From NCBI RefSeq assembly GCF_002028405.1, contig NZ_CP020046.1:1736001-1800000 (forward strand): DNA of 64,000 nucleotides, given 5' to 3'. A program made the translations under genes and the position numbers. Source of the stretch: Thiomonas intermedia (GTDB lineage: Bacteria; Pseudomonadota; Gammaproteobacteria; Burkholderiales; Burkholderiaceae_C). The notes below the pieces were generated by a model. It was not told where the DNA came from, ran no database searches, and worked only from the letters and a program-made list of their open reading frames with translations. Shown here in pieces: positions 48,958 through 63,306 of the stretch; the stretch's first letter is position 1, and every line of letters begins with the position of its first letter.

Positions 48958-49042
48958 GGGGCGCGGCTTGCTCGTCATGATGGCGACAGCAGCGTCACGT
49001 CCTTGCTTTCTTCCCCCGAGCAAAAACGCGGCTTGCGGCGGA

Positions 49043-49723
49043 TCACCGCGGCCGTAGGGCTTCGATCGAAGCCACCCAGCCAACGATGCCGCCTTGCGCC
49101 ACGATCATGTCGAGCGTGGCCTGCTTGAACGCGGGGAAGTAGCTGGCGGTGGCTTCTTCGACCAGCAGGCCGTCGAAGCCGCGGTCGTTGGCTTCGCGCA
49201 TGGTGGTCTGCACGCAGACTTCGGTGGTCACGCCGCCGAAGATCAGCTTGCGGATGCCGCGCTCAGCCAGCACCTGCGACAAGGGCGTGTTGTAGAACGC
49301 GCCCTTGCCGGGCTTGTCGATCTCGACCTCGCCTGCAATGGGCCGCAAGGCTTCGACGATGCCGTTGCCCGGTTCGCCCCGCACCAGGATGCGCCCCATC
49401 GGCCCGGCGTCGCCGATGCGCAGGCGGGGTGTGCCGCGGCAGCGCTTGGCGGGTGGGCAGTCCGAAAGGTCGGGCGCGTGCGACTCGCGGGTATGCACGA
49501 CCAGCAGGCCGTGCTCGCGCGCCCAGGCCAGCAGCCGGGCTGCCGGCTCGACCGCGGCGGCGAGCAGCGACACGTTGTTGCCCAGGGTTTCGCCGAAGCC
49601 GCCGGGCTCGATGAAGTCGCGCTGCATGTCGATGAGTACCAGCGCGGTGTCGTCCGAGCGGCAGTGGAAGGGCTCGGGCCGTGCGGCGATGGTGAAGCTG
49701 CGCGGGGTGTCGGCGCTGCTCAT
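49043..49723 (-). CDS. Isochorismatase-like cysteine hydrolase, possible triuret hydrolase (TrtA-like)
   Basis: A 226-aa isochorismatase-like hydrolase with catalytic Asp32 ([10 protein letters not shown]), Lys137 ([10 protein letters not shown]) and Cys170 ([18 protein letters not shown]). It is about half-identical in outline to the biuret hydrolase gene next to it, sharing [12 protein letters not shown] and the [11 protein letters not shown] segments, but differs around the lid ([21 protein letters not shown]). Known pathways pair biuret hydrolase with a related triuret hydrolase, TrtA, so this is the natural candidate; another ureide amidohydrolase cannot be excluded. It overlaps the upstream gene by four bases (ATGA) and is last in the BMP-transporter operon. 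Confidence 0.7.
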
Positions 49724-50433
49724 GCTTGCGTCTCCAGCGCGCGCAGCAGTTCGGCGGAGTTGGCTACCGCGCCGAAGACGCCGCCCTGCAGGGTCACCAT
49801 CTTGAGGGCGGCGGCATGGTTGGTGGCGTCGGTGGCGCCGCAGCAGTCGGCCAGCAGCAGGCACTCGAAGCCGCGGTCGTTGGCCTCGCGCATGGTGGTG
49901 TGCACGCAGACGTCGGTGGTGATGCCGGTGAGCACGAGGTTGCGGATGCCGCGCTGATGCAGGATGAGTTCCAGATCGGTCGCGCAGAACGAGCCCTTGC
50001 CTGGCTTGTCGATGATGATCTCGCCGGGCCGCGGCGCCAGCTCGGGAATGATGTCCCAGCCCGGCTCGCCGCGCACCAGAATTTTGCCGCAGGGACCGGG
50101 ATCGCCGATGCCCGCGCCGATGCGCTGGCTGCGCCAGCGCTTGTTGGCGGGCAGGTCGGACAGGTCGGGGCGGTGGCCTTCGCGGGTGTGGAAGATGGTG
50201 TAGCCGCCCGCGCGCATGGCGGCGAGCACGCGGCCGATGGGCTCGATCGGCGCCCGGGTGAGCGACAGGTCGTAGCCCATGCGGTCCACATAGCCGCCGA
50301 TGCCGCAGAAGTCCGTCTGCATGTCGATGACGATGAGTGCCGTGTTGGCGGGCCGCAGGTCGCCATCGAAGGGCCAGGGGTAGGGGTTGGCGGCGACCGG
50401 GCCGGCCGCCGCATCGCTGGAGAAGTCGGCCAT
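49720..50433 (-). CDS. biuH: Biuret amidohydrolase (BiuH-like cysteine hydrolase)
   Basis: A 237-aa hydrolase converting biuret to allophanate and ammonia. Asp37, Lys143 and Cys176 align, with a constant offset of one, with the Asp36-Lys142-Cys175 triad of Rhizobium BiuH as I recall it. Long blocks match my memory of that enzyme: [54 protein letters not shown] and [19 protein letters not shown]. The allophanate formed would pass to the hydrolase encoded at 61507-63306. It lies 11 bp downstream of the BMP binding protein gene in the sigma-54-promoted minus-strand operon. Confidence 0.85.
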
Positions 50434-50444
50434 GTCCGTACGGC

Positions 50445-51515
50445 TCACTTCAGGGTGCCAACCACGCCCTTGACGAAGAAGTTCATGGCGTCGACCTTGT
50501 CGCGCGGCAGCTTGCTGCCGGCCGGCACGAGTTCCTTGCCGTCCTGCCCGTAGATCGGGCCGGCCCACACGTCGAGCTTGCCGTCCTTGATGGCGGCCTC
50601 CTTGTCCAGGATCAGCTTGCGGGTGGCTGCATCCACCGAGGGGCCGAAGGGGGCGAGCTTGGCCGCGCCGGTCTTGAGATTGCCGTAGATGGCCTGCGAT
50701 TTCCAGGTGCCCGCCTCCACTTCCTTGACCACGCTGGCCATGATCGGGCCCCAGTTCCAGTAGCCGCCGGTCAGCCAGCCCTGCGGGTAGAAGTGCATGT
50801 CGTCGAAGTGATAGCCGATGACCTTCACGCCGCGCTTCTTGGCCGCCTCGATCACCGGGATCGGCGAGTCCACATGCATGCCCACCACCGAGATGCCCTG
50901 GTCCACCAGGGTGTTGACCGCCGCCACGTCCTTGGACGGGTCGTTCCACGCGCCGGTGTAGACCACGGTCACGGTGGCCTTCGGGTTGACCGACTGCGCG
51001 CCCAGCGCGATGGCGTTCACGTCCTGCAGAATCTGCGGAATCGGGTGCGCGGCGACGAAGCCGATCTTGCCGTTGGCCGCGGCCTTGCCCGCGGCGATGC
51101 CCGAGAGGTACATCGCCTCATACATGTCGGCGAAGTACGTGCCTAGATTGGGGGCGAGCTTGGCGCCGCCGCAATGCATGAAGGTGACCTTCGGGTACTT
51201 CTTGGCCAGATCGAGCGCGTAGGGCAGATAGCCGTAGCTGGTGGCGAAGATGATCTTGTCGCCCGCGCCGATCATGCGTTCCATGGCCTGCGTGACCTGG
51301 GCGCTCTCGGGCACGTTCTCCAGGTAGTTGGTCTTCACGCCGGGGACGGACTTCTGCACGTACAGCCGTCCCGCGTCCTGCGCCTCGTTGTAGCCGCCAT
51401 CGGTCTTGGCGCCGACATAGACATAGCCCACCATGACGTCGGCGCGTGCGGGCTGCATGGCCAGGGTGACCGCGGCCGATGCGGCGGCGATCAGGGCGAG
51501 GAATCGAAGGTTCAT
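50445..51515 (-). CDS. BMP-family ABC transporter substrate-binding protein
   Basis: A 356-aa periplasmic protein with a signal peptide (about 1-25, cleavage near PARA-D). It belongs to the basic membrane protein/PnrA family, whose known ligands are nucleosides, purines and related compounds: [21 protein letters not shown], the [23 protein letters not shown] segment, and [32 protein letters not shown]. The genomic partners (biuret-type hydrolases, AtzGEH) suggest a small ureide ligand such as biuret, triuret or a purine-derived ureide. Terminator not seen; the hydrolase genes follow directly. Confidence 0.88.
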
Positions 51516-51546
51516 GCTGTTCTCCAGGAATGTGAAGGGATGTCGC

Positions 51547-52470
51547 TCAGGACATGCCGCGGAACACGCCGGCGAGCTCCTGAGGCATGGAGGTGCCGCG
51601 CTGGCTGGCCCGGTAGCTCAGCAACAGCACGATCAGCGGCACCAGATAGGGCAGAGTGCCGAGCAGATAGGGAGAGAGGTCGGAGCCCATCGACTGCAGC
51701 CGCAGCGATAGCGCCTCCGACAGCCCGTAGATCAGCGCGACCGGCAGGGCCAGCCAGGGGTTCCAGCGCGCCACGATCACCAGGCCCACGGCGAGCAGGC
51801 CGCGACCGGCGGTCATCTGCTCGACCCAGGTCCGGGTGTAATCCACCGACAGGGCTGCGCCGGCCAGGCCGGTGAAGGCGCCGCCCGTGAGCACCGCGGT
51901 CACGCGCAGACGCATCGGGTGTTTGCCCAGCATGCGCAGCGCATCGGCCGACTCGCCCGCCGAGCGCCAGACCAGGCCCCACTGCGTGCGGTAGAGGAAC
52001 AGGCCGCAGACCACCACCAGCGCCAGCCCGAGGTAGACCGTGGGCGTGAGTTGCGAGAGAAAGCCGCCGACCACCGGCAGGTCGGCCAGCCAGCCGTGGC
52101 GCAGGCTGTGAAAGCCCTCGATCTGCTGGCCGACCAGGGAGGTGCCGTAGAACGACGACAGCCCGTTGCCGAGAAACAGGATGGCCAGGCCGCTGGCGAT
52201 CTGGTTCACACCCAGGCCGAGGCAGAGCAGCGCGTGCACCGACGACAGCGCCACGCCCGCGGCGGCACCCACGGCCAGCCCCGCCCAGGGGCTGCCCGTG
52301 ATGTGGGTGGCCGCGAACCCGGCGGCCGCGCCGACGAGCATCTGCCCTTCCACGCCGAGGTTCACCACCCCGGCCCGCTCGGTGAGCGTTTCTCCGAGCA
52401 TGGCCAGCAGCACCGGCGTGGCCGTAAGCAGGGCGATGGACAACAGGCCGAGAAGCAGTCCCCCGTTCAT
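51547..52470 (-). CDS. BMP-type ABC transporter permease (second)
   Basis: A 307-aa permease of the BPD_transp_2 group used by nucleoside and ureide importers. About eight to nine helices; the typical segment LTERAGVVNLGVEGQMLVGA (about 28-47) and GLGVNQIASGLAILFLG (about 85-101) are seen. Its start overlaps the stop of the first permease gene by four bases (ATGA). The binding-protein gene follows 31 bp downstream. Confidence 0.9.
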   Translation of the reverse strand: MNGGLLLGLLSIALLTATPVLLAMLGETLTERAGVVNLGVEGQMLVGAAAGFAATHITGSPWAGLAVGAAAGVALSSVHALLCLGLGVNQIASGLAILFLGNGLSSFYGTSLVGQQIEGFHSLRHGWLADLPVVGGFLSQLTPTVYLGLALVVVCGLFLYRTQWGLVWRSAGESADALRMLGKHPMRLRVTAVLTGGAFTGLAGAALSVDYTRTWVEQMTAGRGLLAVGLVIVARWNPWLALPVALIYGLSEALSLRLQSMGSDLSPYLLGTLPYLVPLIVLLLSYRASQRGTSMPQELAGVFRGMS

Positions 52471-53516
52471 ACCGCCGCCTTTCGCCTGGCGCGCCAGGCA
52501 CCCACGCCGAGCACGCTCATGAACAGCAGGGCCTGCATCACCACGGTGTTGGCGAAGGGCAACTGGGCAAACAGCTGCAGCGCGTCACCCGCAGAAAGAA
52601 GGCCGCCCATGACCAGTGCCAGCGGAATGATGCGCAGGAAGTTCTGTCCGGCCAGCCACGCCACCAGAAAGCCGACATAGCCGTAGCCGGACGAGATGTC
52701 GGGTTGCAGATGCGTCTGCACGTTGGCGGTCTGCACATAGCCCGCCAGCCCGGCCAGCCCACCCGCGAGCGCCATGACCAGAAGGGTCTGACGGGTGTAG
52801 GACAGCCCGGCCATGCGGGCCACGCGCGGATTGCTGCGCAGCAGGTCGAGGCCGGTGCCCCAGCGGCTCTTTTCCACCAGCACATGGAGCGCCACGGCCA
52901 GCAGCACGGCAAGGGGCAGCGCCCAGTCTGTGCTCAGGCCGCCAAGGTTGATGGAGGGGAATTTCGCGGCTTCCGGGAAGGCGATGGTGGCGGGCCAGCC
53001 CAGGTTGCCCGCATCCTTCCACGGCCCATACACCGCGTACTGGACGAGCTGGATGGCCACATAGTTCATCAGTATGGTGACGATGGTCTCGTTCACGCCC
53101 AGCACCGCCCGCAGCAGGCCGGGAATGGCGCCCCAGAGGCCGCCGCCCAGCAGCGTGAGCAGCACCGCGGCGGGCAAGAGTTGCCAGATCGGCGCCGAGG
53201 TCATGTGCAGCACGATGGCGGTGCCTGCCAGCGCGCCGAAGTAAAGCTGCCCTTCCGCGCCCACCGAGATCAGGCCCATGCGCGCGGGCAGCGCGGTGGC
53301 CAGAGCGCAGAACAGGATGGGGATGGTCTTGGTCAGGGTGGTGTTGATCGACAGGGCATTGCCGAAGGCGCCCTGCACGATCTGGTTGAAGATGGTCAGC
53401 GGCGCGTAGCCGTTGAAGAAAAAGAACGCCGCGGCGAGCAGCAGAAACACGCCGATGCCGCCCGCCGGAACGGTGAGCCGGTCGGCCAGGGTGCGCCAGG
53501 CGGTGGACGTGCTCAT
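52467..53516 (-). CDS. BMP-type ABC transporter permease (first)
   Basis: A 349-aa permease paired with the next gene. The family motif is visible as PARMGLISVGAEGQLYFGALAGT (about 79-101) and LGVNETIVTILMNYVAIQLVQY (about 138-159). MSTSTAWRTL at 53516 is chosen because its ATG overlaps the ATPase stop codon (ATGA); the upstream open frame is a shadow. About nine to ten helices. Confidence 0.9.
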   Translation of the reverse strand: MSTSTAWRTLADRLTVPAGGIGVFLLLAAAFFFFNGYAPLTIFNQIVQGAFGNALSINTTLTKTIPILFCALATALPARMGLISVGAEGQLYFGALAGTAIVLHMTSAPIWQLLPAAVLLTLLGGGLWGAIPGLLRAVLGVNETIVTILMNYVAIQLVQYAVYGPWKDAGNLGWPATIAFPEAAKFPSINLGGLSTDWALPLAVLLAVALHVLVEKSRWGTGLDLLRSNPRVARMAGLSYTRQTLLVMALAGGLAGLAGYVQTANVQTHLQPDISSGYGYVGFLVAWLAGQNFLRIIPLALVMGGLLSAGDALQLFAQLPFANTVVMQALLFMSVLGVGAWRARRKAAV

Positions 53517-54997
53517 GGTGTAGCTCCGTGGGTCATCAGGTGGCCGATCTGCATGCGGTCGGCCGCGGCTGCGGGCAGCACGCCGACGACCTTGCCGTGA
53601 TAGAGCACCGCGATGCGGTGGGCATAGCGCAGCAGATCGTCGAGGTCTTCCGAGATCCACAGCACGGCGGCGCCGCCTGCGGCCTGGCGGAACAGGGCGT
53701 CGTAGACGGCCTGGGTGGCCTGCAGGTCCAGCCCCATGGTCGGGTAGCAGGCCACGACGAAGCGCCGCGGCTCCGACAGCTCGCGGGCGATCACCAGCTT
53801 CTGCAGATTGCCCCCGGACAGCCGGCCCGAGGCCAGCCGTGTCTGGCGCGGGCGCACGTCGAACTGTTCCATGAGGTCCCGGGCGCGCAGCTCCAGCGTG
53901 TCCCAGCGCGGGAACAGCGGCATGCCGCCGAGGCGGCGAAGCGCAAGATTCAGGCTGTTGCGCATGTCGGCGGCCACCGCGTTCTTCAAGGGGTATTCGG
54001 GGATGTAGCCCTGGCGGGCGTCGTGCGGCCGCGCGGTGTCGTGGCTGTGCAGCACCTCGCCGTCGAGCAGTACGTCGCCCGCGCTGATCGGCGCCATGCC
54101 GGTCACGGCGTCGGCCAGAAGATCTTGCCCGTTGCCCGATACACCGGCGATGCCGAGCACTTCGCCCGGCGCAATGTCGAGGTCGATGCCTTCGAGCGCG
54201 AGCGTGTCGGCCTGGCTGCGCAGCCCGCGGATCGAGATGCGGGCCACCGAATCGTCGGGCGGCGCGGTCTGTGCGACCGAGCGCAGCTGGGTGTTGCCCA
54301 CCATGAGCGCGACCAGCTTCTCGGCGTCGATGCCGCGCGCATCGGCCTGGTCGACCAGTCGGCCGCCCCGCATCACCGCCACGCGGTGCGCGCAGGCCCG
54401 CACGTCTTCGAGTTTGTGGGTGATGAACACCACGCTGCGGCCCGATTCGGCCAGCCGCCGCACCACCGCATGCAGGCGCTGCACTTCCTCCGGGGCCAGC
54501 ACCGAGGTCGGCTCGTCGAGGATGACCAGCTGCGCATCGAGGTTGAGCACCTTGACCAGTTCGACCTGCTGCTTCTGCCCGACCGACAGGTCGGCGACGC
54601 GCCGGTCCGCGGCCACACCGGGCGCGAACTCCGCAAGCAGGCGCACCGCCTTTTCGGTGTTGCGGCGGCTGTGCCAGATTGGCGGCTCGGGGTAGGCCAG
54701 CAGCAGGTTGTCCAGCACGGTCAGCGCCGGAATCAGGCTGAACTGCTGAAACACCATGCCGATGCCCTGGGCCATCGCATCGCGCGGGGAGTCGATGGCC
54801 ACCTCGCGCCCATCCACCAGCACCTGTCCGCCGTCGGCCCGGTAGTAGCCGTAGAGCACCTTCATCAGGGTGCTCTTGCCGGCGCCGTTCTCGCCCAGCA
54901 GGGCCAGCACTTCGCCGTCGCCGATCTCCAGCGACACGGCGTCATTGGCCAGGACGGGGCCGAAGCGCTTGCTGATGTCGATGAGCTGGACGTGCAT
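53513..54997 (-). CDS. BMP-type ABC transporter ATP-binding protein (two ABC domains)
   Basis: A 494-aa ATPase of the sugar/nucleoside type, with two fused nucleotide-binding domains. Domain 1 has Walker A GENGAGKSTLMKVL (about 34-47), signature LSVGQKQQVELVKVL and Walker B LVILDEPTSVLAPEE. Domain 2 has the degenerate GVSGNGQDLLADAV Walker A region, LSGGNLQKLVIAREL and CYPTMGLDL in place of the usual Asp-Glu, the normal decay of the second domain in this family. It is the first gene of the operon, preceded by the sigma-54 promoter at 55052-55067. Confidence 0.92.
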   Translation of the reverse strand: MHVQLIDISKRFGPVLANDAVSLEIGDGEVLALLGENGAGKSTLMKVLYGYYRADGGQVLVDGREVAIDSPRDAMAQGIGMVFQQFSLIPALTVLDNLLLAYPEPPIWHSRRNTEKAVRLLAEFAPGVAADRRVADLSVGQKQQVELVKVLNLDAQLVILDEPTSVLAPEEVQRLHAVVRRLAESGRSVVFITHKLEDVRACAHRVAVMRGGRLVDQADARGIDAEKLVALMVGNTQLRSVAQTAPPDDSVARISIRGLRSQADTLALEGIDLDIAPGEVLGIAGVSGNGQDLLADAVTGMAPISAGDVLLDGEVLHSHDTARPHDARQGYIPEYPLKNAVAADMRNSLNLALRRLGGMPLFPRWDTLELRARDLMEQFDVRPRQTRLASGRLSGGNLQKLVIARELSEPRRFVVACYPTMGLDLQATQAVYDALFRQAAGGAAVLWISEDLDDLLRYAHRIAVLYHGKVVGVLPAAAADRMQIGHLMTHGATP

Positions 54998-55021
54998 GGG
55001 AATGGCGCAGATCGGGGGTAA

Positions 55022-55037
55022 TCATGCATACATGATG
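55022..55037. promoter_or_regulatory. Candidate GntR operator at the BMP-operon transcription start
   Basis: ATCATG-CATA-CATGAT has perfect 6-bp arms. It lies 14 bp downstream of the -12 element of the minus-strand sigma-54 promoter, so it covers or follows the expected transcription start. Its core (GCATACATG) is related to the GTATACAT site at 55187. A GntR-type repressor gene is in the divergent operon. Confidence 0.45.
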
Positions 55038-55051
55038 GATGCTCGATCTAT

Positions 55052-55067
55052 GCAAACGGCGTGCCAA
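55052..55067 (-). promoter_or_regulatory. Sigma-54 (-24/-12) promoter for the BMP-transporter/biuret hydrolase operon
   Basis: On the minus strand the sequence is TGGCAC-GCCGT-TTGCA, an exact match to the sigma-54 consensus TGGCAC-N5-TTGCA with GG and GC ten bases apart. It lies 55 bp upstream of the ATPase gene start. Sigma-54 promoters need an enhancer-binding activator, most likely NtrC in this nitrogen context. Confidence 0.85.
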
Positions 55068-55162
55068 TGGTGTTCGCCCTCGCTGGATGCGCAGAGGCCG
55101 GCCGTGCCTAAATGATTGAAAGACCTGAGATCAAGGCCTTCTTCAGGATGAAGGGACTGTTT

Positions 55163-55178
55163 TGGCACGCGGCTTGCA
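55163..55178 (+). promoter_or_regulatory. Sigma-54 (-24/-12) promoter for the atzG-atzE-atzH-gntR operon
   Basis: TGGCAC-GCGGC-TTGCA is an exact sigma-54 match with correct spacing. It is 157 bp upstream of the atzG-like start and points away from the BMP promoter; the two share the 337-bp divergent region 54998-55334, which holds no gene. The GntR-type palindrome TTGTATACAT follows immediately. Confidence 0.85.
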
Positions 55179-55185
55179 TAATCTC

Positions 55186-55195
55186 TTGTATACAT
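55186..55195. promoter_or_regulatory. Candidate GntR operator after the atz-operon promoter
   Basis: TTGTATACAT contains the palindrome TGTATACA and fits the general FCD/GntR pattern TNGTNNACNA. It lies 7 bp downstream of the -12 element, where a bound repressor would block open-complex formation or escape. A similar site (TTGTGCACAA) sits at the same position of the third sigma-54 promoter. Confidence 0.5.
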
Positions 55196-55236
55196 ATTGT
55201 GGCAACGCCATGGGCACGGTCAGCGAGGCTCGCAGC

Positions 55237-55251
55237 GCACCGGCACAGTGC
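55237..55251. promoter_or_regulatory. Weak candidate NtrC enhancer site
   Basis: GCAC-CGGCACA-GTGC fits the core GCAC-N7-GTGC of NtrC sites such as those at glnA. It is about 170 bp upstream of the -24 element of the BMP promoter and inside the leader of the atz operon; NtrC sites can act from either side. The short match could be chance in GC-rich DNA. Confidence 0.3.
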
Positions 55252-55334
55252 GAAGGGGGCCTGAAAACGGTGCGGGTGCACCAACCCCTCCGGCCTCGGC
55301 ATCCCGCATGAGCCGATCAGATGAAGGAGACTGC

Positions 55335-55559
55335 ATGAACGATTCCACGCGACTTCCCACGCCAGCCGCTCCGGCCGCTGAGCTGGTCGACTGGGGTGCG
55401 CGTCAGCACGGACTGCCGCTGGATGCCGCGGCCCGCGTGCGGATTGCGCAGCAGGTCGAGCGCCTGCAACAGGTGATGGCCGTGCTCGATGGCGTGGCCT
55501 TGACGGTGCATGACGAACCGGCGCCGGACTTTGTGCCCGACGCGGAGCCCGCGCCATGA
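55335..55559 (+). CDS. atzG: AtzG-like small partner (DUF4089) of the AtzE amidase
   Basis: A 74-aa protein with the DUF4089/AtzG pattern, a GatC-like helical hairpin: ELVDWGARQHGLPLDAAARVRIAQQVERLQQVMAVLDGVAL and a tail DEPAPDFVP that in AtzG wraps the amidase. In Pseudomonas ADP, AtzG stabilises AtzE, a relationship descended from the GatCA complex. AAGGAG lies six bases before the ATG. The stop overlaps the atzE start (ATGA), ensuring equal synthesis. Homologues are also annotated HpxX in ureide pathways. Confidence 0.88.
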   Translation: MNDSTRLPTPAAPAAELVDWGARQHGLPLDAAARVRIAQQVERLQQVMAVLDGVALTVHDEPAPDFVPDAEPAP

Positions 55560-56950
55560 GCGGCCCCTCTGCGCCAAGCTGTGTGCCGCCGTTCGGCGAC
55601 CCCTCGCTGCGGTCGGCCCTCGACATGGCCGGGGCCATTGCGTCGGGCACCCTCGGCGCAGCCGAGCTGACCCAGCACGCGCTGGACCGTATCGCCCTGG
55701 TCAATCCGCGTCTGAACGCCTTCACCTCGGTGACGGCGGATCGAGCACGGCGCAAGGCGCGCGACATCGACGCGGCGCGTGCGCGGGGCGAGCCCCTGCC
55801 GCCGCTGGCCGGCGTGCCCTACGCGGTCAAGAATTTGTTCGATGTGGCGGGCCTGACCACGCTGGCAGGCTCGCGGGTGCTGGCCAGCGCGCCCGCGGCA
55901 AGCGCCGACGCCGTGCTGGTCGACCGCATGGAACGGGCCGGTGCGGTGCTGGTCGGTGCGCTCAATATGGACGAATTCGCCTACGGCTTCACCACGGAGA
56001 ACACGCACGCCGGCCCCACGCGCAACCCGCATGCCCTAAGCCACAGCGCCGGGGGCTCGTCGGGCGGTTGCGGCGCGGCGGTCGCGGCGGGTCTGGTGCC
56101 GCTGAGCCTGGGTTCGGACACCAACGGCTCCATCCGGGTGCCCTCCTCCGTCTGCGGCATCTTCGGCCTCAAGCCCACCTTCGGGCGTCTGCCGCGGCAG
56201 GGCAGCTACCCCTTTGTCTACAGCCTGGATCATCTGGGGCCCTTCGCGCGCAGTGCCGATGATCTGGCGCGTTGCTTTGCCGTCCTGCTGGGCGACGCCG
56301 CTCCCGCCGCAGGTCTGTTGGGCGAGGCCGGGCCGCTGCGCGCCGCCCTGCTCGGAGGCTACTTCCAGCAGTTTGCCGGACCGCAGGCGCGAGCCGCCGC
56401 GCGGGCCGCGGCCATCGCGCTCGGCGCGGCCGACGAGGTCGAGTTCACCAGCGCTGCCGCGGCACGGGCTGCGGCCTTCATCATCACCGCGTCGGAAGGC
56501 GGCCAGCTGCACCTCGACCATCTGCGCGACCATTACGACGCGATGGAGCCGCTATCGCGCGACCGTCTGGCCGCCGGGGCGCTGTTGCCGGCCTCGGCCT
56601 ACATCCGGGCGCAGCGGGTTCGCGCCCTGGCGCGTGCCGAGGCGCGCCGATTGTTCGAGCGCTTCGACCTGCTGATCGCCCCGGCCACGCCCGTTGCGGC
56701 ACAGCCTCTGGGCAGCGAGTCCTTCGATCTCAACGGTACGTCCGTGCCGACGCGCCCGAACATGGGCCTGCTGACCCAGCCCATCTCCTGCATCGGCCTG
56801 CCGGTGGTCGCGGCGCCCATGCGCGTGGCGCCCGGCGAGCTGCCCATCGGCGTGCAACTGATCGCCGCGCCGGGCCGGGAGGAGGTGGCGCTGCGCGCGG
56901 CGCGGATGCTGGAAGCCGCAGGGGCCACGGCCGCGGGCGGTGCCGCATGA
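55556..56950 (+). CDS. atzE: AtzE-family amidase (1-carboxybiuret hydrolase-like)
   Basis: A 464-aa amidase-signature enzyme with Lys92 (YAVKNLFD), cis-Ser168 ([10 protein letters not shown]) and nucleophile Ser192 ([14 protein letters not shown]), the last two 24 residues apart as in the family. With AtzG it deaminates 1-carboxybiuret to 1,3-dicarboxyurea in the cyanuric acid pathway; the same type (HpxY) is placed in oxalurate catabolism in other bacteria. The neighbouring biuret-type hydrolases favour a carboxybiuret-like substrate here. It overlaps atzG by four bases and a 28-codon ORF at its end. Confidence 0.88.
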
Positions 56951-57033
56951 GCGCCCACGCCTGGGCGCCCGAAGAGGGCGCTCTCCTTCCCTCGGGGCAG
57001 CGGTCGCGCGGCGACCGGAGGGTCGCCCAGTGA
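56947..57033 (+). CDS. Possible 28-codon coupling ORF between atzE and atzH
   Basis: An ATG overlaps the atzE stop (ATGA) and opens a 28-codon frame ([17 protein letters not shown]...) whose TGA overlaps the atzH GTG (GTGA). It may serve only to carry ribosomes from atzE to atzH. CTGGGCG near its start can pair with CGCCCAG just before the atzH GTG, which could hide that start unless the ORF is translated. The peptide has no recognised family. Confidence 0.35.
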
Positions 57034-57425
57034 GCCTCGCCCTCAGCGCGGTGAACCTGCCCGAGGTGGTGGCGGAAGTGGAGGCCGTCTTCGCGCAATA
57101 CGAAGCGGCCTTGGTGGGCAATGACGTGGCGATGCTCGACCTTCTGTTCTGGGACCACGCCGCGACCCTGCGCTACGGCGCGACCGAGAACCTCTACGGC
57201 TACGCCGAGATAGCCGCCTTCAGGGCCCAGCGCCCCGCGCAGGGGCTGGCGCGCACCCTTCGTAGGCGCAGCCTGACCACGTTTGGTCACGACTTCGCGG
57301 TCGCTAATATCGAGTTCGTCCGGGACGGCTCGACCCGGATCGGCCGACAGTCCCAGACCTGGGTCAGGCTGGCCGAAGGCTGGCGGGTGGTCGCCGCCCA
57401 CGTGAGCTGGTTGGACCCCCTATGA
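57030..57425 (+). CDS. atzH: AtzH/HpxZ-like DUF3225 protein
   Basis: A 131-aa SnoaL-fold protein of the DUF3225 family. In the Pseudomonas ADP pathway, AtzH is reported to turn 1,3-dicarboxyurea into allophanate. Tyr24 (VFAQYEAAL) and Arg48 (AATLRYG) have the same 24-residue spacing as the Tyr22 and Arg46 reported as needed in AtzH (from memory). [27 protein letters not shown] is the usual C-terminus. The GTG at 57030 has GGAGGG seven bases upstream; the frame is open from 56940 but unsupported. It overlaps the regulator gene (ATGA). Confidence 0.88.
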
Positions 57426-58168
57426 CGCCACCGAATCCCAGTCCACGTGAACAAGCGCTTGCCGCAGGGCGCGGCAAGCCGACATCGCGGGCCGTCGCGC
57501 TCTACGCCCAATTGCGGGAGGACGTGTTCGAGTTCCGGCTGCTGCCCGGCGAGCGTTTCACCGAATCCGAAATCGCCGAACGCTACGGCGTCTCGCGCAC
57601 CCCGGTGCGCGAGGCCCTGTTGCGGCTGCAGACCGAGGGCCTGGTGCGCGGCTACTTCCGCAGCGGCTGGGAGGTGGTGCCCATCGACTTCGCGCGCTTC
57701 GACGACCTCTACGAGCTGCGCAAACTGATCGAGGTGCATGCCGTGCGCCAGCTGGCGGGCGGTGCCGTCGACGAGGCCAGCCAGCAGCGGCTTGGCGCGC
57801 TCGTCGCCGACTGGATCGTCGACAAGAGCGCGCGTCTCAGCGATGCCCGCGTGGTGTCCGGGCTCGACGAGGTGTTCCACACCGAACTCGTGGCCGCCGC
57901 GGGCAATCAGGAGATGCTGCGCGTGCACGCCGAGGTGACCGACCGCATCCGCATCATCCGGCGTCTGGATTTCACTTATCCCCACCGTGTGAGCACCACC
58001 TACGACGAGCACGCCGCCATTCTGCGAGCCATCCAGCGCCACAAGCCGGATCAGGCCGAGCTGCTCATCCGCGCCCACATCGACCGCAGCCGCCAGGAAA
58101 CGCGCAAGATCACCCTGCATCGGCTGCAGACGGTGCGCACCGAGGCGAAGCAATACGCACCAGCGTAG
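57422..58168 (+). CDS. GntR-family (FCD/FadR subgroup) transcriptional regulator
   Basis: A 248-aa regulator: an N-terminal winged helix ([31 protein letters not shown], about 40-70) and an all-helical FCD ligand-binding domain ([18 protein letters not shown]..., [42 protein letters not shown]) with the Asp and His residues that usually hold a metal ion and a carboxylated ligand. It is the last gene of the atz operon and so autoregulated. Candidate operators lie right after all three sigma-54 promoters. A dicarboxyurea- or allophanate-like ligand is a reasonable guess. Confidence 0.9.
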
Positions 58169-58245
58169 GCCGGTTTCGCCCCGCCTTTTGCGCGGCGGCA
58201 CCCCATCGTCCGCCTGCTTGGTAGTCGCAACCGGATGTGTCCGCG

Positions 58246-58261
58246 TGGCATGCAACTTGCA
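58246..58261 (+). promoter_or_regulatory. Sigma-54 (-24/-12) promoter for the NMT1-type ABC transporter operon
   Basis: TGGCAT-GCAAC-TTGCA matches the sigma-54 consensus (one usual C/T variation) with GG and GC ten bases apart. It lies 67 bp before the binding-protein start, downstream of gntR, so the transporter genes form their own transcription unit. Confidence 0.83.
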
Positions 58262-58263
58262 TT

Positions 58264-58286
58264 CGTTCTTGTGCACAAGTTTGTGC
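58264..58286. promoter_or_regulatory. Candidate GntR operators: CTTGTGCACAAG and a second half-copy
   Basis: CTTGTGCACAAG (58264-58275) is a perfect 12-bp palindrome of the TNGTNNACNA type; TTGTGCACCG (58277-58286) repeats it 12 bp further on. Both lie just after the -12 element of the sigma-54 promoter, the same arrangement as at 55186. Confidence 0.55.
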
Positions 58287-58328
58287 ACCGATCCATAGCG
58301 CTTTTCACTCCAAGGCGAGGATGCAACC

Positions 58329-59330
58329 ATGACCGATACCCTTCACTCCGTTCCTTCACGCCCTGACCGCCGCCGCGTCGTGGCCGCCGGTCTGTGCCTG
58401 GCCGCAGGCGCTGCGCTGAGCCGGGTCGCCCGTGCCGACACCCCGATCCGCATCGGCTTCTGGCCAATCGCCGGCGGCATTCCGCTCTACGCCGGGGTGA
58501 ACCATGGCGTGTTCAAGCAGGCGGGGTTGCAGGTCGAGGCGGTGAAATTCGCCAGCGCACAGCAGGTGGTGGAGGCGATGATCGCCGGACGCATCGACGG
58601 CTCGGCCAATGGCACGGCGTCGGCAGCGCTGGGGCTGGGCGACATCGCCGAACCGGGGTTGTGCAAGATCATCGCCTCCAACCCGTCCAACGCCAAGCTG
58701 GTGCTCGACGAAGTGCTGGTCGCGGCCAAGAGCGGCGTCAAGGCCCTCGGCGAACTCAAAGGCAAACGGATCGGCTGTGGTCCTGGTATTCAGAACGTGG
58801 TCCTGGCCAAGATCATTTTCGAGAAAAACGGCTACCCCGACTGCAAGCCCATCGAAATGCCGGTGGGCCAGCATGTCGCGGCCCTAGCCGCAGGGCAGGT
58901 CGACGCCGTCTATACCCTCGAGCCCACCGGCACGGTTGGACGGCTTGGCGGTCTGACCCGCACCCTCGAAGTCGGGGTGATCTCCAAGTACGTGCTTGGA
59001 GATCCAGATGCTCCGTGGTACGGCGGTTCGGCCTCGCTGACAGCCAAGTTCCTGAAGGCCAATCCGGCCCTGGCGCAGCGCTACATCGCCGCCTATCTGC
59101 AGGCCATCGACTTGGTGCTCAAGGAGCCGACCAAGGTGCGCCCCGACCTCGTCGGCTACACCAGCATCGATGCCAAGCTGGCCGAGGCTGTGCCGCTGCC
59201 CGGCTTCACCAACTACACGCAGTTCACGCCCGGCGACGTGGGCTATTTCCAGAAATTTTTCGACGTGTTCACCGAGCGCAAGATCTTCACACGTAAGGTC
59301 GACGTCGGCGCCATGCTCTACAAGGCATGA
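58329..59330 (+). CDS. NMT1/SsuA-type ABC transporter substrate-binding protein
   Basis: A 333-aa periplasmic protein of the NMT1/THI5-like, SsuA/TauA-like fold. An N-terminal twin-arginine-like run (RPDRRRVVAAG) and hydrophobic stretch to about residue 36 (VARADT) suggest Tat or Sec export. Typical segments are IRIGFWPIAGGIPLYAGVNHGVFKQAG, ASAQQVVEAMIAGRIDG and LKGKRIGCGPGIQN. Relatives bind sulfonates, nitrate, cyanate, thiamine precursors and other small nitrogen compounds. Position beside cyanase and allophanate hydrolase points to cyanate, urea or a similar ligand. It overlaps the permease gene by four bases. Confidence 0.87.
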   Translation: MTDTLHSVPSRPDRRRVVAAGLCLAAGAALSRVARADTPIRIGFWPIAGGIPLYAGVNHGVFKQAGLQVEAVKFASAQQVVEAMIAGRIDGSANGTASAALGLGDIAEPGLCKIIASNPSNAKLVLDEVLVAAKSGVKALGELKGKRIGCGPGIQNVVLAKIIFEKNGYPDCKPIEMPVGQHVAALAAGQVDAVYTLEPTGTVGRLGGLTRTLEVGVISKYVLGDPDAPWYGGSASLTAKFLKANPALAQRYIAAYLQAIDLVLKEPTKVRPDLVGYTSIDAKLAEAVPLPGFTNYTQFTPGDVGYFQKFFDVFTERKIFTRKVDVGAMLYKA

Positions 59331-60085
59331 GCCCGCGCCTGATGCGGCTGCTGCCGCTGCTCGGCCCGCTGTTGCTGCTGGTGCTGTGGCAAACTGCCGT
59401 GTCGGCGTACTGGGTCAATCCGGTGCTGCTGCCCACGCCAGGCGCCACGCTGGCCGCACTATGGGGCAGCCTGCTCGACGGCAGCATGTGGCCGGACCTG
59501 CAGGCCACGGTGCTGCGCACCTTCTATGCCTTCGCCATCGCGGCCTTCGTCGGCGTGCCGCTGGGGGTGGCGCTGGGCAGTTCGCCGCCGATCTACCGCA
59601 GCGTCGAATTCCTCATCGATTTCTTCCGTTCGACGCCCTCCTCCGCCCTTATCCCCTTGTTCATGCTGCTGTTCGGTCTGTCGAACCTGAACAAGATCGC
59701 CATCGCCGCGTTCGCCGCGGTGCTGCTCATCCTGTTCAACAGCGCGTATGGCGTGATGCATGCGCGCAAGACCCGGGTGCTGGCGGTGCAGGTCATGGGG
59801 GTGTCGCGCTGGCATGTGTTCAAGGACGTGCTGCTGCTGGAAAGCCTGCCGCAGACCTTCGTCGGCCTGCGCACGGGAGTGAGCATGGCGCTGGTCATCG
59901 TCATCGTCGCCGAGATGTTCATCGGCTCGGACAACGGCCTGGGCCAGCGCATCATCAACGCGCAGCAGGTGCTCAACATCAAGGGCATGTACGCCGCCAT
60001 CTTGCTCACCGGGGTGCTCGGCTATCTGCTCAACCTGCTGTTCTTCCTCATCGAGCGGCGATTCGTGCATTGGGGTGGAAAATGA
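59327..60085 (+). CDS. ABC transporter permease (SsuC/TauC-like)
   Basis: A 252-aa permease with about six helices. The coupling EAA motif is recognisable as VMGVSRWHVFKDVLLLESLPQTFVGLRTGVSMALVIVIVAE (about 150-190). The SPPIYRSVEFLIDFFRSTPSSALIPLFMLLFG segment is typical of nitrate/sulfonate/cyanate-type permeases. It overlaps its neighbours by four bases at each end (ATGA). Confidence 0.9.
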   Translation: MSPRLMRLLPLLGPLLLLVLWQTAVSAYWVNPVLLPTPGATLAALWGSLLDGSMWPDLQATVLRTFYAFAIAAFVGVPLGVALGSSPPIYRSVEFLIDFFRSTPSSALIPLFMLLFGLSNLNKIAIAAFAAVLLILFNSAYGVMHARKTRVLAVQVMGVSRWHVFKDVLLLESLPQTFVGLRTGVSMALVIVIVAEMFIGSDNGLGQRIINAQQVLNIKGMYAAILLTGVLGYLLNLLFFLIERRFVHWGGK

Positions 60086-60924
60086 GCGCATGGTCAAACT
60101 GGTTCGGCGGCAATGCCGCCGCCGCATCTCCCAATGCCGCGCAGCTCGTGCGCAAACCGGCGGCGCCGGGCACCCACGTCACGGTGCGCGGGTTGTGCAA
60201 GGCCTTCCATGGCGCCACGCTCTACCAGGATCTCGACCTCGACATTCCGCGCGGGCGCATCGTCTCGGTGTTTGGCCCCAACGGCTGCGGCAAGTCGACG
60301 CTGATCAATATGATCGCCGGGCTGCTGCCGGTGGACTCCGGCGAAATCCTGTTCGACGGCAAGTCACTCCGTGACACGGTCATCGGCTACGTGTTCCAGA
60401 ACTACCGCGACGCCCTGCTGCCCTGGATGAGCGCGCGCGGCAACATCGAATACCCGCTTCGCCGACGCGGTATGGCCGCGGAGCAGGTGAAGGAGCGCGT
60501 CGACGCCTTGATCGACGCCTTCGACGTGCGCTTCGATCTGAGCCGCCACCCCTACGAGTTCTCGGGCGGCCAGCAGCAACTCGTATCCATCATGCGCGCG
60601 CTCGCCCCGCGGCCCGAAGTGTTGTTTCTCGACGAGCCGTTCTCCGCGCTCGACTATGAGATGACTTTGTTCATCAGAGACCGTCTGCAGCATGTCCAGC
60701 GGCAGGAAAACACCACGACCCTCATCGTCTCGCACGATCTGGAGGATGCCGTGTTCCTCGCCGACCGTATCCTGCTTCTCACACGTCGACCCACCCGTAT
60801 CGCGGCCGAGCTCGAATTTGACATGCCTCGCCCTCGCAGCGCCGAGTCGGTCGCCGATCCTCACTTCGTCGCGGTGAAATCACGAGCGCTGGAGTTGTTT
60901 CGTGAGCAGGTCGCAGTAGGGTAG
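60082..60924 (+). CDS. ABC transporter ATP-binding protein (SsuB/NrtD-like)
   Basis: A 280-aa ATPase. Walker A is FGPNGCGKSTLINMIAG (about 66-82), the Q-loop is VFQNYRDALLPW, the signature is FSGGQQQLVSIMRAL and Walker B is EVLFLDEPFSALD, with the H-loop in IVSHDLEDAVFLADR. It has about 30 extra N-terminal residues (NAAAASPNAAQLVRKPAAPG). It ends the transporter operon; the cynS gene is convergent 94 bp away. Confidence 0.92.
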   Translation: MSAWSNWFGGNAAAASPNAAQLVRKPAAPGTHVTVRGLCKAFHGATLYQDLDLDIPRGRIVSVFGPNGCGKSTLINMIAGLLPVDSGEILFDGKSLRDTVIGYVFQNYRDALLPWMSARGNIEYPLRRRGMAAEQVKERVDALIDAFDVRFDLSRHPYEFSGGQQQLVSIMRALAPRPEVLFLDEPFSALDYEMTLFIRDRLQHVQRQENTTTLIVSHDLEDAVFLADRILLLTRRPTRIAAELEFDMPRPRSAESVADPHFVAVKSRALELFREQVAVG

Positions 60925-61018
60925 ATCTTCGTGAGGAGGAGCCTATCGCCGATCTCCTGCGGCGTACGACCTGCGTTGCCAGGCTGCTCGCAGCGCAGAA
61001 CCTATCCTGCCGTCATCC

Positions 61019-61462
61019 TCAATAGGTCTTGTACGGCAGAAACTTTCCCGACATGATGATGCACACACGGTCGCCTTTGGGGTCGGGCTCGCGGGTGAGG
61101 TCCATCTTGAAATCGATGGCGCTCATGATGCCGTCGCCGAACTCTTCATGGATCAGTTCCTTGAAGGTGGTGCCATACACATTGACCAGTTCGTAGAAGC
61201 GGTAGATCAGCGGGTCGGCGGGTACGACAGTGGGCAGTGAGCCCTTGTAGGGCACGGTCTGCAAGAGCTTGACTTCCATGGCGTCGAGTTCGAACAGCTT
61301 GCCCACCACCTCAGCCTGCTCCGCGGTGAAGGCCATCTGGCCAAGGCAGGCGGCAGTCACCCATTCCTTGCTTTGACCGACGGCCTGGGCCACTTCGGCC
61401 CAGCTGATGCCCTTGGCGATACGCGCGGCGATGAGGGTTTCGGTGACGTCGTTGCGGGTCAT
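61019..61462 (-). CDS. cynS: Cyanate hydratase (cyanase)
   Basis: A 147-aa enzyme that converts cyanate and bicarbonate to carbamate and CO2, releasing ammonia. Arg88, Glu91 (YRFYELVNVYG) and Ser114 (GIMSAIDF) correspond, with a constant offset of eight, to Arg96, Glu99 and Ser122 of E. coli CynS. The N-terminal helical domain (IAARIAKGISWAEVAQAVGQSKEWV) is complete. The ATG at 61462 gives a normal start. It is the last gene of the urea carboxylase-allophanate hydrolase operon, 44 bp after it, which ties cyanate detoxification to ureide breakdown. Confidence 0.95.
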   Translation of the reverse strand: MTRNDVTETLIAARIAKGISWAEVAQAVGQSKEWVTAACLGQMAFTAEQAEVVGKLFELDAMEVKLLQTVPYKGSLPTVVPADPLIYRFYELVNVYGTTFKELIHEEFGDGIMSAIDFKMDLTREPDPKGDRVCIIMSGKFLPYKTY

Positions 61463-61506
61463 GTTGGGCTCCGGATTGAGCGGTGGATGGAACGAAGAGG
61501 CTGGTT

Positions 61507-63306
61507 TCAGCGCGCCGCCAGATAAGCGCGCCAGCCGCCGAAGGCCGTGATGTCGCGCGCGCCTTCCACGCCGATGGGCTCGCAGATGAAGCCGCACACG
61601 GGGGTGCCATCGGCCAGTTGCAGGGTGCCGATGCCCAGCGGTTCGGGAATACCGGCAACGAAGGAGCCGAACTCGGCCGCAGGCAGCTCCCATACCTCGC
61701 AGGCGATGGCGGCGCCGCCATCAGCCACGCGGATCAGGCCGGGGCGCTTGCCGTCCGGCAAGGCGTAGAAGCGATACAGCGGCGCGGTCTGCGTGGTGGC
61801 AACGCACCGCCCGCCACGGCGGGTGAGCTGGTGGTTCAGCGGCAGGCCGCTCAGATGGGCGCCGACGACAGCCACGCGCACCTGTCCGCTGGGCACTGGC
61901 GCGGGGGCATCCGTGTCGGACGGCGCAGGCGCAGGCGCGGGCTCCGCGGTGCCGCAGGGCGCGGCGCGGCTGTCCTGCCAGCGCCCGGCCAGATGCAGCA
62001 GAGGCACGTCCTGGTGCGCGGGGGCGAACAGGGTCACGCCCAGCGGCAGGCCGTCCTGCCGGAATCCGCCGGGCACGGCGATGGCGGCATAGTCCAGCAG
62101 GTTCATGAAGTTGGTGTAGAGGCCGAGGTTGGTGTTGAGCCGGATCGGGTCGGCCAGCATCTGGGCGCGGGTGTAGAGGGTGCCCGCCGTGGGCGTGACG
62201 ACGCAGTCCACCACGTTCCACACCGGCGCGCAGATGCGCTGCAGGGCGCGCAGCTTGTACTGCGCGGCGAAGGCATCCGCCGCCAGCGGCTTGGCGCCGC
62301 CGAGGGTGATGTCGCGCGTCACTGGGAACAGGGCCTCCGGCCGGGCGTCGATGAAGGCGCGGATGGCCTCGTAGCGTTCGGCCACCCAGGGGCCGCCGTA
62401 CAGCAACTTGGCCGTGTCGATGAAGGGCGCGAAGTCGATCGGCACGGCCTTGCCGCCGAGCGACTCCAGCCGCGCAACGCTTTCGCGGAAGAGGCGCTCG
62501 GACTCGGCGTCGCCGAAGAACTCGAGGTCTTTGTCCATCGGCACGCCGAAGCGGAAGGATGCGGCGCGACCGAAGTCGAAGCCGTGGGGCTCGGCGGCGC
62601 GTGAGTACGGATCGGCCGCGTCTTCCGCGGCGGCCACCGCGAGCACGCGCTGCGCATCGGGCGCGGACAGGGCGAAGATGGACACCACGTCCAGCGACCG
62701 GCAGGCCGGCACCACGCCGGTCGTCGAGAGCAGGCCGCAGGTGGGCTTGAGGCCGATGAGGTTGTTGAACGCCGCAGGCACGCGGCCCGAACCGGCGGTG
62801 TCGGTGCCCAGCGAAAAGCTCGCCAGGCCGAGCGCGACGGCCACGGCCGACCCGGAACTGGAGCCGCCGGAAATGAAATCGGGGTCGAAGGCGTTGCGGC
62901 AGGCGCCGTAGGGCGAGCGCGTACCGTTGAGCCCGGTGGCGAACTGGTCGAGATTGGTCTTGCCCATGGCGATGGCGCCGGCCGCTTCCAGCCGCGCCAC
63001 CACGGTGGCGGACTGCTCCGGCATATAGGCGTACTCGGGGCAGGCGCAGGTGGTGGGCACGCCGGCGAGGTCGATGTTGTCCTTGATGGCGAAGGGCACG
63101 CCGAACAGCGGCAGGCCGTCCATGCCTGCCGCCTCCAGCGCCTTCGCGCGGGCACGCAGATGCGCGGCGTCGGGCGGGGTGATCCAGATGGCGTGGTCAG
63201 GGTACTGCGCGGCGCGCTCCAGCAGAGCCTCCACCAGCGCGGTCGGCGTGAGCCGGCCGTCGCGGTAGGCGGTGTGCAGGGCGGGGATGGTGAGGCTGTC
63301 GATCAT
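61507..63306 (-). CDS. atzF: Allophanate hydrolase (AtzF/DUR2-type)
   Basis: A 599-aa enzyme splitting allophanate to ammonia and CO2. The amidase part has Lys75 (PFAIKDNIDL), cis-Ser149 (ISGGSSSGSA) and nucleophile Ser173 (LGTDTAGSGRVPAA), whose spacings equal those of AtzF Lys91-Ser165-Ser189. A linker rich in Pro/Ala (about 455-475) leads to the C-terminal allophanate hydrolase domain (VRVAVVGAHLSGLPLNHQL..., TAPLYRFYALP, KRPGLIRV, and GICEPIG-like FICEPIGVEGARDITAFGGW). It is directly downstream of urea carboxylase (TGAATG, no gap) and receives allophanate from that enzyme, BiuH and AtzEGH. Confidence 0.95.
   Translation of the reverse strand: MIDSLTIPALHTAYRDGRLTPTALVEALLERAAQYPDHAIWITPPDAAHLRARAKALEAAGMDGLPLFGVPFAIKDNIDLAGVPTTCACPEYAYMPEQSATVVARLEAAGAIAMGKTNLDQFATGLNGTRSPYGACRNAFDPDFISGGSSSGSAVAVALGLASFSLGTDTAGSGRVPAAFNNLIGLKPTCGLLSTTGVVPACRSLDVVSIFALSAPDAQRVLAVAAAEDAADPYSRAAEPHGFDFGRAASFRFGVPMDKDLEFFGDAESERLFRESVARLESLGGKAVPIDFAPFIDTAKLLYGGPWVAERYEAIRAFIDARPEALFPVTRDITLGGAKPLAADAFAAQYKLRALQRICAPVWNVVDCVVTPTAGTLYTRAQMLADPIRLNTNLGLYTNFMNLLDYAAIAVPGGFRQDGLPLGVTLFAPAHQDVPLLHLAGRWQDSRAAPCGTAEPAPAPAPSDTDAPAPVPSGQVRVAVVGAHLSGLPLNHQLTRRGGRCVATTQTAPLYRFYALPDGKRPGLIRVADGGAAIACEVWELPAAEFGSFVAGIPEPLGIGTLQLADGTPVCGFICEPIGVEGARDITAFGGWRAYLAAR

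Follow-up and report, generated by a model that had tools for sequence, protein, structure and literature searches.

Three ureide operons with sigma-54 sites and a common palindrome

A stretch of 64,000 nucleotides from Thiomonas intermedia (assembly GCF_002028405.1, contig NZ_CP020046.1, forward-strand positions 1,736,001 to 1,800,000; hereafter the window, with positions counted from its first letter) holds three operons with predicted roles in the uptake and breakdown of triuret, biuret and related ureides: a minus-strand operon of a BMP-type ATP-binding cassette (ABC) transporter, biuH and a trtA-like gene, a plus-strand atzG-atzE-atzH-gntR operon, and a plus-strand operon of an SsuABC-like transporter. 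Each is preceded by an exact match to the sigma-54 pattern TGGCAY-N5-TTGCA, and a palindrome with the consensus CTTGTATACAAG begins 6, 6 and 16 bp after the three -12 elements. The last gene of the atz operon encodes a GntR/FCD regulator, which by sequence is a candidate repressor of all three promoters. The elements in question are as follows.

55051..55066, minus strand: predicted sigma-54 promoter TGGCACGCCGTTTGCA of the BMP-type ABC transporter/biuH/trtA-like operon; predicted start ~55040; window matrix rank 1
55021..55036 (12-mer core 55023-55034), no strand: candidate GntR operator ATCATGCATACATGAT of the BMP operon, at about +7 to +18; operator-matrix rank 2
55163..55178, plus strand: predicted sigma-54 promoter TGGCACGCGGCTTGCA of the atzG-atzE-atzH-gntR operon; predicted start ~55189; matrix rank 2
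55185..55196, no strand: candidate GntR operator CTTGTATACATA across the atz start point; operator-matrix rank 1
58246..58261, plus strand: predicted sigma-54 promoter TGGCATGCAACTTGCA of the SsuABC-like transporter operon; predicted start ~58272; matrix rank 3
58268..58279, no strand: candidate GntR operator CTTGTGCACAAG, a perfect palindrome, across the transporter start point; operator-matrix rank 3
58281-58288, no strand: a second TTGTGCAC after the transporter operator, as a repeat
57422..58168, plus strand: gntR, GntR/FCD regulator and last gene of the atz operon, with Pfam GntR (PF00392) and FCD (PF07729) above cut-off

Sigma-54 sites in the window and in the genome

Scanning for the exact pattern returned only these three sites in the window, one ahead of each operon. 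Dinucleotide shuffles of the window (100 in all) gave a mean of 0.14 exact sites and a maximum of 2, and none reached three; when one mismatch was allowed, 7 matches were found against 3.3 expected, a count reached by 9 of the 100 shuffles, so that only the exact class stands out. The genome (3.34 Mb, two contigs), in which rpoN is encoded, has 11 exact matches compared to 1 for the reversed-pattern control, and 3 of the 11 fall within 3.2 kb, where 0.008 would be predicted from the rate of the other 8 (P for three or more ~8e-8). GG and GC are spaced by ten bases at all three sites, each of which stands ahead of a gene, with gaps of 53, 156 and 67 bp to the first codon as given by the list of open reading frames. 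A matrix trained on other genomes ranked the three sites 1, 2 and 3 of the 64 kb, and similar sites precede related operons elsewhere. Since the sites are exact, clustered, at the top of this ranking and paralleled before related operons in other genomes, their reading as three correctly oriented sigma-54 promoters is strongly supported by sequence. Promoters of this class are often tied to nitrogen starvation, and their transcripts start about 12 bp after the GC.

A preliminary description of this DNA had reported three sigma-54 sites before three operons, with GG and GC ten bases apart and 55-157 bp to the first gene, had judged them unlikely to arise by chance, and had proposed the genome scan reported here. 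The sites, the spacing and the judgement on chance are all borne out, and the distances were close to those found; the coordinates 55163-55178 and 58246-58261 were right, but the minus-strand site, given as 55052-55067, was off by one.

The other 8 exact matches in the genome are of mixed kinds. One stands ahead of a urtA gene (genome 1311045-1311060), with an NtrC-like box upstream, and serves as a positive control from the same genome, and another ahead of an arsenite oxidase small-subunit gene (genome 258267-258282); both genes score above curated cut-offs, and both are plausible sigma-54 targets. A further site lies just ahead of a shikimate-kinase-like open reading frame with family matches below cut-off. 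Three are intragenic: one in ntrB (above cut-off) and, by Pfam, one each in a murB-like and an amidohydrolase gene. Another (genome 1883485-1883500, minus strand) follows the 3' end of an NtrC-like activator gene on the same strand by ~160 bp, and the last is within open reading frames that have no Pfam match.

A palindrome at the predicted start points

By sequence, the palindromes overlap the predicted start point or, in the BMP operon, lie just past it, a position which fits a repressor better than an activator, and palindromes of this kind are typical of GntR/FCD regulators. Operator and sigma-54 matrices were trained on 40 sigma-54/operator composites outside the window, and all 64 kb were scored. 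Under the operator matrix the three operators took ranks 1, 2 and 3 of all positions, and the three window composites scored 40.1, 38.5 and 36.3 bits, compared to 8.4 bits for the next best in the window. The exact pattern CTTGTRYACAW, which was shaped on these sites, occurs at two places only in the genome, namely the atz and transporter operators.

For recurrence in other genomes, a composite was defined as a sigma-54-like site with an operator (at least 9 of 12 letters) within 44 bp downstream. A search of 399 genomes of the order with the window's GntR protein gave 59 matches (E up to 1e-40), one of them here, spread over 50 genomes including that of the window. A first set of 57 stretches covered the 58 matches outside the window, and it was in this set that the palindrome was first noticed; a second set of 48 named orthologue loci was fetched after that, and its species may overlap those of the first. 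The first composite scans took in only positions 48001-64000 of the window, while the matrix ranking took in all of it.

In the first set, 55 sigma-54-like sites were counted and 27 of them formed composites, versus 0.5% of random positions: all 3 sites of the window did so, and 24 of the 52 outside it, which include one site in the next stretch of the same genome. In the second set the count was 16 of 46 sites, versus 0.6%. This corresponds to 22 of the 57 and 16 of the 48 loci. By comparison, a contrast set of 32 distant GntR loci (L164-L185 and L187-L196, at most 38% identical to the window's GntR and outside the orthologue count) had an operator at 0 of 9 sigma-54 sites. All 43 composite promoters differ in sequence, and their 12-mer starts between 1 and 23 bp after the -12 element, most commonly at 6 (9 of 43) or 14 bp (6 of 43). 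In other genomes the composite stands ahead of operons for biuret, allophanate or urea carboxylase that come with an orthologue of the window's GntR/FCD protein; every one of the 16 second-set composites is in a GntR-holding locus, ahead of an atzF, BMP or ssuA-like gene, and the hosts in that set include Enterobacter, Pantoea, Pectobacterium, Bordetella, Achromobacter, Azoarcus and Halopseudomonas.

Across whole genomes, a strict composite was present in 9 of 399, or 7 of the 50 with the GntR versus 2 of the 349 without it (P ~1e-5), and the reversed control gave none. For a loose composite, 40 genomes of each kind were compared, picked from the 50 and the 349 by list order and by hand and not at random; 14 of those with the GntR and 2 of those lacking it had the composite (P 0.0015; reversed control 3 of 80). 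What is directly observed is the sequence of the sigma-54 sites and operators, the fact that they recur, and their association with this family of GntR proteins; the genome co-occurrence supports, and does not prove, binding of the palindrome by GntR.

One genus, represented by stretches L065, L069, L071, L073 and L095, has a variant operator resembling GGTATACC, with a near-copy just downstream, placed 16-23 bp after the -12 element.

The GntR/FCD regulator

The start of gntR overlaps the atzH stop by 4 bases. FCD domains can hold an Asp-His-His-His metal site, which suits a carboxylate ligand, and residues D149, H153, H197 and H219 of the window protein are invariant in an alignment of 26 GntR sequences (which omits L029, L038 and L043, with inner stops, and L042, by oversight); all four are aligned in 7xp0. 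The window protein has the residues of the FCD metal site, and metal binding is predicted. Members of the HutC subfamily carry a UTRA domain. By sequence the window protein is not of that subfamily, with 19.8 bits for the HutC model TIGR02018 against a cut-off of 220; FCD was found, and UTRA was not among the matches listed. Orthologues of the regulator sit with triuret and biuret genes, and also with urea carboxylase and allophanate hydrolase in fetched stretches that have no biuret genes, which makes allophanate the compound shared by both settings. A literature search, in which most subscription journals were out of reach, found no earlier description of this operator, and a paper on NtrC of Pseudomonas stutzeri (PMC8443478) makes no mention of biuret, allophanate, urea carboxylase or GntR.

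NtrC boxes and the activator

The NtrC box was scanned as GCACCA-N3-TGGTGC, the form quoted in the available part of PMC12977541, with at least 9 of its 12 letters counted as a match. Of the 43 composite promoters, 24 have an NtrC-like box between 80 and 140 bp ahead of the -24 element, compared to a mean of 1.5 and a maximum of 6 in 200 mononucleotide shuffles; counted in 20-bp bins, 28 matches fall into the three bins from -80 to -140 and 17 into all others. The box that stands out most at the locus itself is the following.

55237..55251, no strand: NtrC-like box GCACCGGCACAGTGC, 170 bp upstream of the BMP-operon -24 element and 58 bp downstream of the atz -12 element

This box took window rank 3 with an NtrC-box matrix trained outside the window, and it is weak when taken alone, since the genome has 133 occurrences of the plain dyad versus 58 of a control pattern. 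At the transporter promoter only low-scoring boxes were found, and dinucleotide shuffles of the upstream stretches equalled or beat the best box of the three promoters in 26, 4 and 8 of 30 cases, respectively. The idea of a clear NtrC box at each window promoter was therefore rejected: 55237-55251 is a real dyad, but the shuffles do not single out the boxes. At the urtA promoter of the same genome, the box GCACACTTCTGGTGC lies 172 bp upstream of the -24 element, is second best of its 3-kb stretch and has a score similar to that of 55237-55251.

The genome encodes ntrC (above cut-off), and control by NtrC is likely by family and by genome, and weaker for the window's own promoters. The NtrC-type nitrogen control proposed in the preliminary description has the family's boxed promoters in its favour, whereas the window's boxes are weak or oddly placed; the sigma-54 part of that interpretation was right, and what it missed was a second layer, the palindromic operator linked to the cluster's own GntR.

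The atz leader is long (55197-55334, counted as ~146 nt from the predicted start) and contains GGTGC/GCACC half-sites in addition to the dyad at 55237-55251. A riboswitch in the leader (55190-55334) was considered and rejected, with no Rfam family reaching its gathering score anywhere in the window.

A proposed two-input gate and its alternatives

Protein binding, repression, the effector, the activating role of NtrC at this locus and the start sites are predictions drawn from sequence, and together they suggest a gate of the AND type, which I consider likely: sigma-54 and NtrC would report nitrogen shortage, and GntR would repress all three operons until a pathway metabolite appears. The sigma-54 polymerase would sit closed at -24/-12 and need an enhancer-binding protein to open. 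Under nitrogen shortage active NtrC, the most likely activator, would bring about opening at the three promoters, while GntR/FCD bound to the CTTGTATACAAG-type palindrome on or just past all three starts would block opening or escape. A pathway metabolite would then release GntR, and my guess is allophanate or a related carboxylate such as 1-carboxybiuret, on the grounds that orthologues accompany urea carboxylase and allophanate hydrolase where biuret genes are missing and that the residues of the FCD metal site are invariant. With gntR inside the atz operon, the regulator would repress itself in a negative feedback, and the genes would come on only when nitrogen is scarce and biuret or triuret is there as food.

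Several results weigh against this gate. No composite was seen at 35 of the 57 loci of the first set and at 32 of the 48 loci of the second, more than half in each case; some of these stretches or contigs stop before the operon start, and others do not. The composites are not fully independent, with L051:3509 (minus strand) reading one palindrome from the other side and five sites being of a single genus and of variant form. The sites of the window itself do not fit the strict composite, their operators being different from TTGTATACMA, and G097, one of the 14 genomes with the loose composite, has it ~20 kb from the GntR gene. The BMP-operon operator is the weakest with respect to the 12-mer consensus (9 of 12). 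The training composites were chosen by likeness to the 12-mer, so the leave-out test bears on the window and not on the existence of the motif. Nor is the genome enriched in the 12-mer CTTGTATACAAG when two mismatches are allowed: it occurs at 18 places, two of which lie in the window, and the reversed control at 44. The strength of the operator lies in the learned matrix and in its position behind the sigma-54 sites. An NtrC box at the usual distance is absent from two of the window promoters and poor at the third, and an ntrC mutant of Burkholderia cenocepacia grew better on biuret according to the available part of PMC5491218.

The best surviving alternative keeps the repression by GntR and replaces NtrC with another enhancer-binding protein. 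The weak or oddly placed boxes of the window would agree with this, as would six genome matches to TIGR01818 above 240 bits besides the true NtrC, but none of the 38 TIGR01818 matches in the genome lies inside the window, on which a local enhancer-binding protein was rejected, and the NtrC-like box stands at the expected distance in 24 of the 43 family promoters; I regard this alternative as unlikely. Nitrogen control alone, with the operons driven by NtrC and sigma-54 and no function for the palindromes, would be satisfied by the exact sigma-54 sites, by RpoN and NtrC in the genome and by the family's NtrC-like boxes, yet it leaves aside that a matrix trained elsewhere places these three palindromes above every other position in the 64 kb and that they recur with GntR across genera, which makes it quite improbable. 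To a similarly small degree, a different regulator may bind the palindrome, with GntR merely travelling with the genes: the pairing of GntR with the palindrome is itself deduced from sequence, and the operator may go with the type of operon as well as with GntR. Set against this are the palindrome type typical of GntR/FCD proteins, the confinement of all 16 second-set composites to GntR-holding loci ahead of ureide genes, the lack of the operator at the 9 sites near distant GntR genes, and the rarity of the composite in genomes without the GntR. Chance sites that are not promoters are a negligible prospect and were rejected on the shuffles, the genome count and the leave-out ranking: at least 3 of the genome's 11 exact matches are intragenic and hence probably due to chance, but 0.14 would be expected per window, 3 of the 11 lie in 3.2 kb, and a second element learned elsewhere joins them.

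Beyond the window, the gate suggests, tentatively and with somewhat more doubt than confidence, that the three-part promoter of NtrC box, sigma-54 site and GntR/FCD operator may define a regulon not described so far, spanning Burkholderiales, Enterobacterales and one or more members of Pseudomonadales, the repressor of which would sense allophanate or another ureido carboxylate. The gate itself, if correct, would give triuret, biuret and urea-carboxylase catabolism a wiring that can be tested, since it specifies an operator sequence, the regulator and where it sits relative to the start, and only a few candidate effectors. Biuret and triuret are impurities of urea fertiliser, which gives the pathway its agricultural interest, and the pair of GntR and promoter could serve as a biuret or triuret sensor.

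Genes of the three operons

49043..49864, minus strand: trtA-like triuret hydrolase candidate; best PDB match 6xix; real start probably near 49690
49720..50397, minus strand: biuH, predicted biuret amidohydrolase; NF050097 above cut-off; start estimated from the domain match
50445..51515, minus strand: BMP/PnrA-type substrate-binding protein; Pfam Bmp
51547..53660, minus strand: two permease genes (52467-53660, start uncertain, and 51547-52470); Pfam BPD_transp_2
53513..54997, minus strand: BMP/PnrA-type ABC transporter ATPase, first gene of the minus-strand operon; best NCBIfam match NF047930, below cut-off
55335..55559, plus strand: atzG-like small subunit; Pfam AtzG-like at 24.1 bits, cut-off 24
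55556..56950, plus strand: atzE, 1-carboxybiuret hydrolase family; NF006631 and TIGR02715 above cut-off
56940..57425, plus strand: atzH/hpxZ-like; NF033625 above cut-off, Pfam AtzH-like; start uncertain, match from residue 37 or 38
58329..60924, plus strand: SsuA/SsuC/SsuB-like ABC transporter operon; subfamily matches below cut-offs

The stretch 49043-50397 (minus strand) encodes tandem isochorismatase-family hydrolases, one above the BiuH cut-off and the other nearest to TrtA. The structure 6xix is TrtA, the triuret hydrolase of Herbaspirillum, as described in the accessible part of PMC7948467. After the transporter operon, the minus strand carries a cyanase, an allophanate hydrolase and a carboxylase that matches the urea carboxylase model. 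A set for the triuret/biuret pathway (TrtA, BiuH, AtzE-type and AtzF) is thus present, TrtA by best solved match only, with activities as predicted from sequence.

A probable guanidine operon next to the ureide genes

Outside the window, a guanidine-I riboswitch (81.6 bits; L107:7307-7410, minus strand) follows a near-consensus sigma-54 site, TGGCACGTTTCATGCA (7440-7455, minus strand), at a distance of 29 bp; the two together occupy genome positions 1807307-1807455, with two NtrC-like boxes upstream. The genes that follow are ABC-transporter-like and 28-36% identical to the SsuABC-like proteins of the window. A guanidine-II riboswitch (47.1 bits; L107:3000-3044, minus strand), also outside the window, lies 12 bp before a long open reading frame which seems to run into the window's urea-carboxylase-like gene. 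On the basis of this riboswitch and its reading frame, the operon extending into the window at 61019-63960 probably deals with guanidine, and the layout resembles one described in PMC12186494. On the tentative regulon reading given above, this genome would combine a single gate for nitrogen shortage with two kinds of sensor, a protein in three operons and an RNA, the guanidine-I riboswitch, in a fourth.

Comparison with known systems

The Klebsiella hpxWXYZ cluster has atzG/E/H-like genes and belongs to the oxalurate pathway, which sets it apart from the ureide pathway here. AtzR of the atzDEF system is a LysR-type regulator, in contrast to the local GntR/FCD protein of the window. The atzDEF/AtzR system of Pseudomonas sp. 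ADP resembles the present one in its pathway from cyanuric acid to biuret and in having an inducible atz operon with its own regulator (PMC4362333). Like the window's operons under the proposed gate, hpxWXYZ goes up under nitrogen shortage with possible control by NtrC and sigma-54, and the available text of PMC8381380 reports no such GntR.

Operons for urea carboxylase, allophanate hydrolase and urea transport have been placed in NtrC regulons before. In the parts of these sources that were accessible, atzF was predicted in the NtrC regulon of Rhizobiales (PMC5343134), expression of urea carboxylase was strongly lowered in a Burkholderia cenocepacia ntrC mutant (PMC5491218), and sigma-54 control was predicted for genes called urea carboxylase (PMC12316311); the same parts of all three report no GntR operator. 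The biuH/trtA clusters of nitrifiers and Herbaspirillum likewise bring together trtA, biuH, atzF and a BMP-type transporter (PMC12625717, PMC7948467, as far as accessible), and a synteny legend in the former names a GntR-family regulator on biuH contigs. They differ in having TrtB where the window has AtzE-type genes, and a promoter or operator is not described in the accessible text.

The nearest working model is hutU of Pseudomonas. According to the available parts of PMC12977541 and PMC8871633, HutC, a GntR protein, represses the sigma-54 promoter of a nitrogen-source pathway by covering a region that overlaps the sigma-54 site, a pathway compound releases it, NtrC or CbrB activates, with NtrC acting from upstream palindromes, and the HutC operator TGTA-N2-TACA resembles TGTATACA. 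The differences are that HutC is of another GntR type whereas the window protein has an FCD domain, that the pathway is for ureides and not for histidine, and that the window repressor seems to cover three promoters, with its operator on or just past the start. The proposed gate would thereby extend the HutC type of logic, in which a local GntR repressor is combined with NtrC and sigma-54, to a second GntR subfamily and to a ureide pathway.

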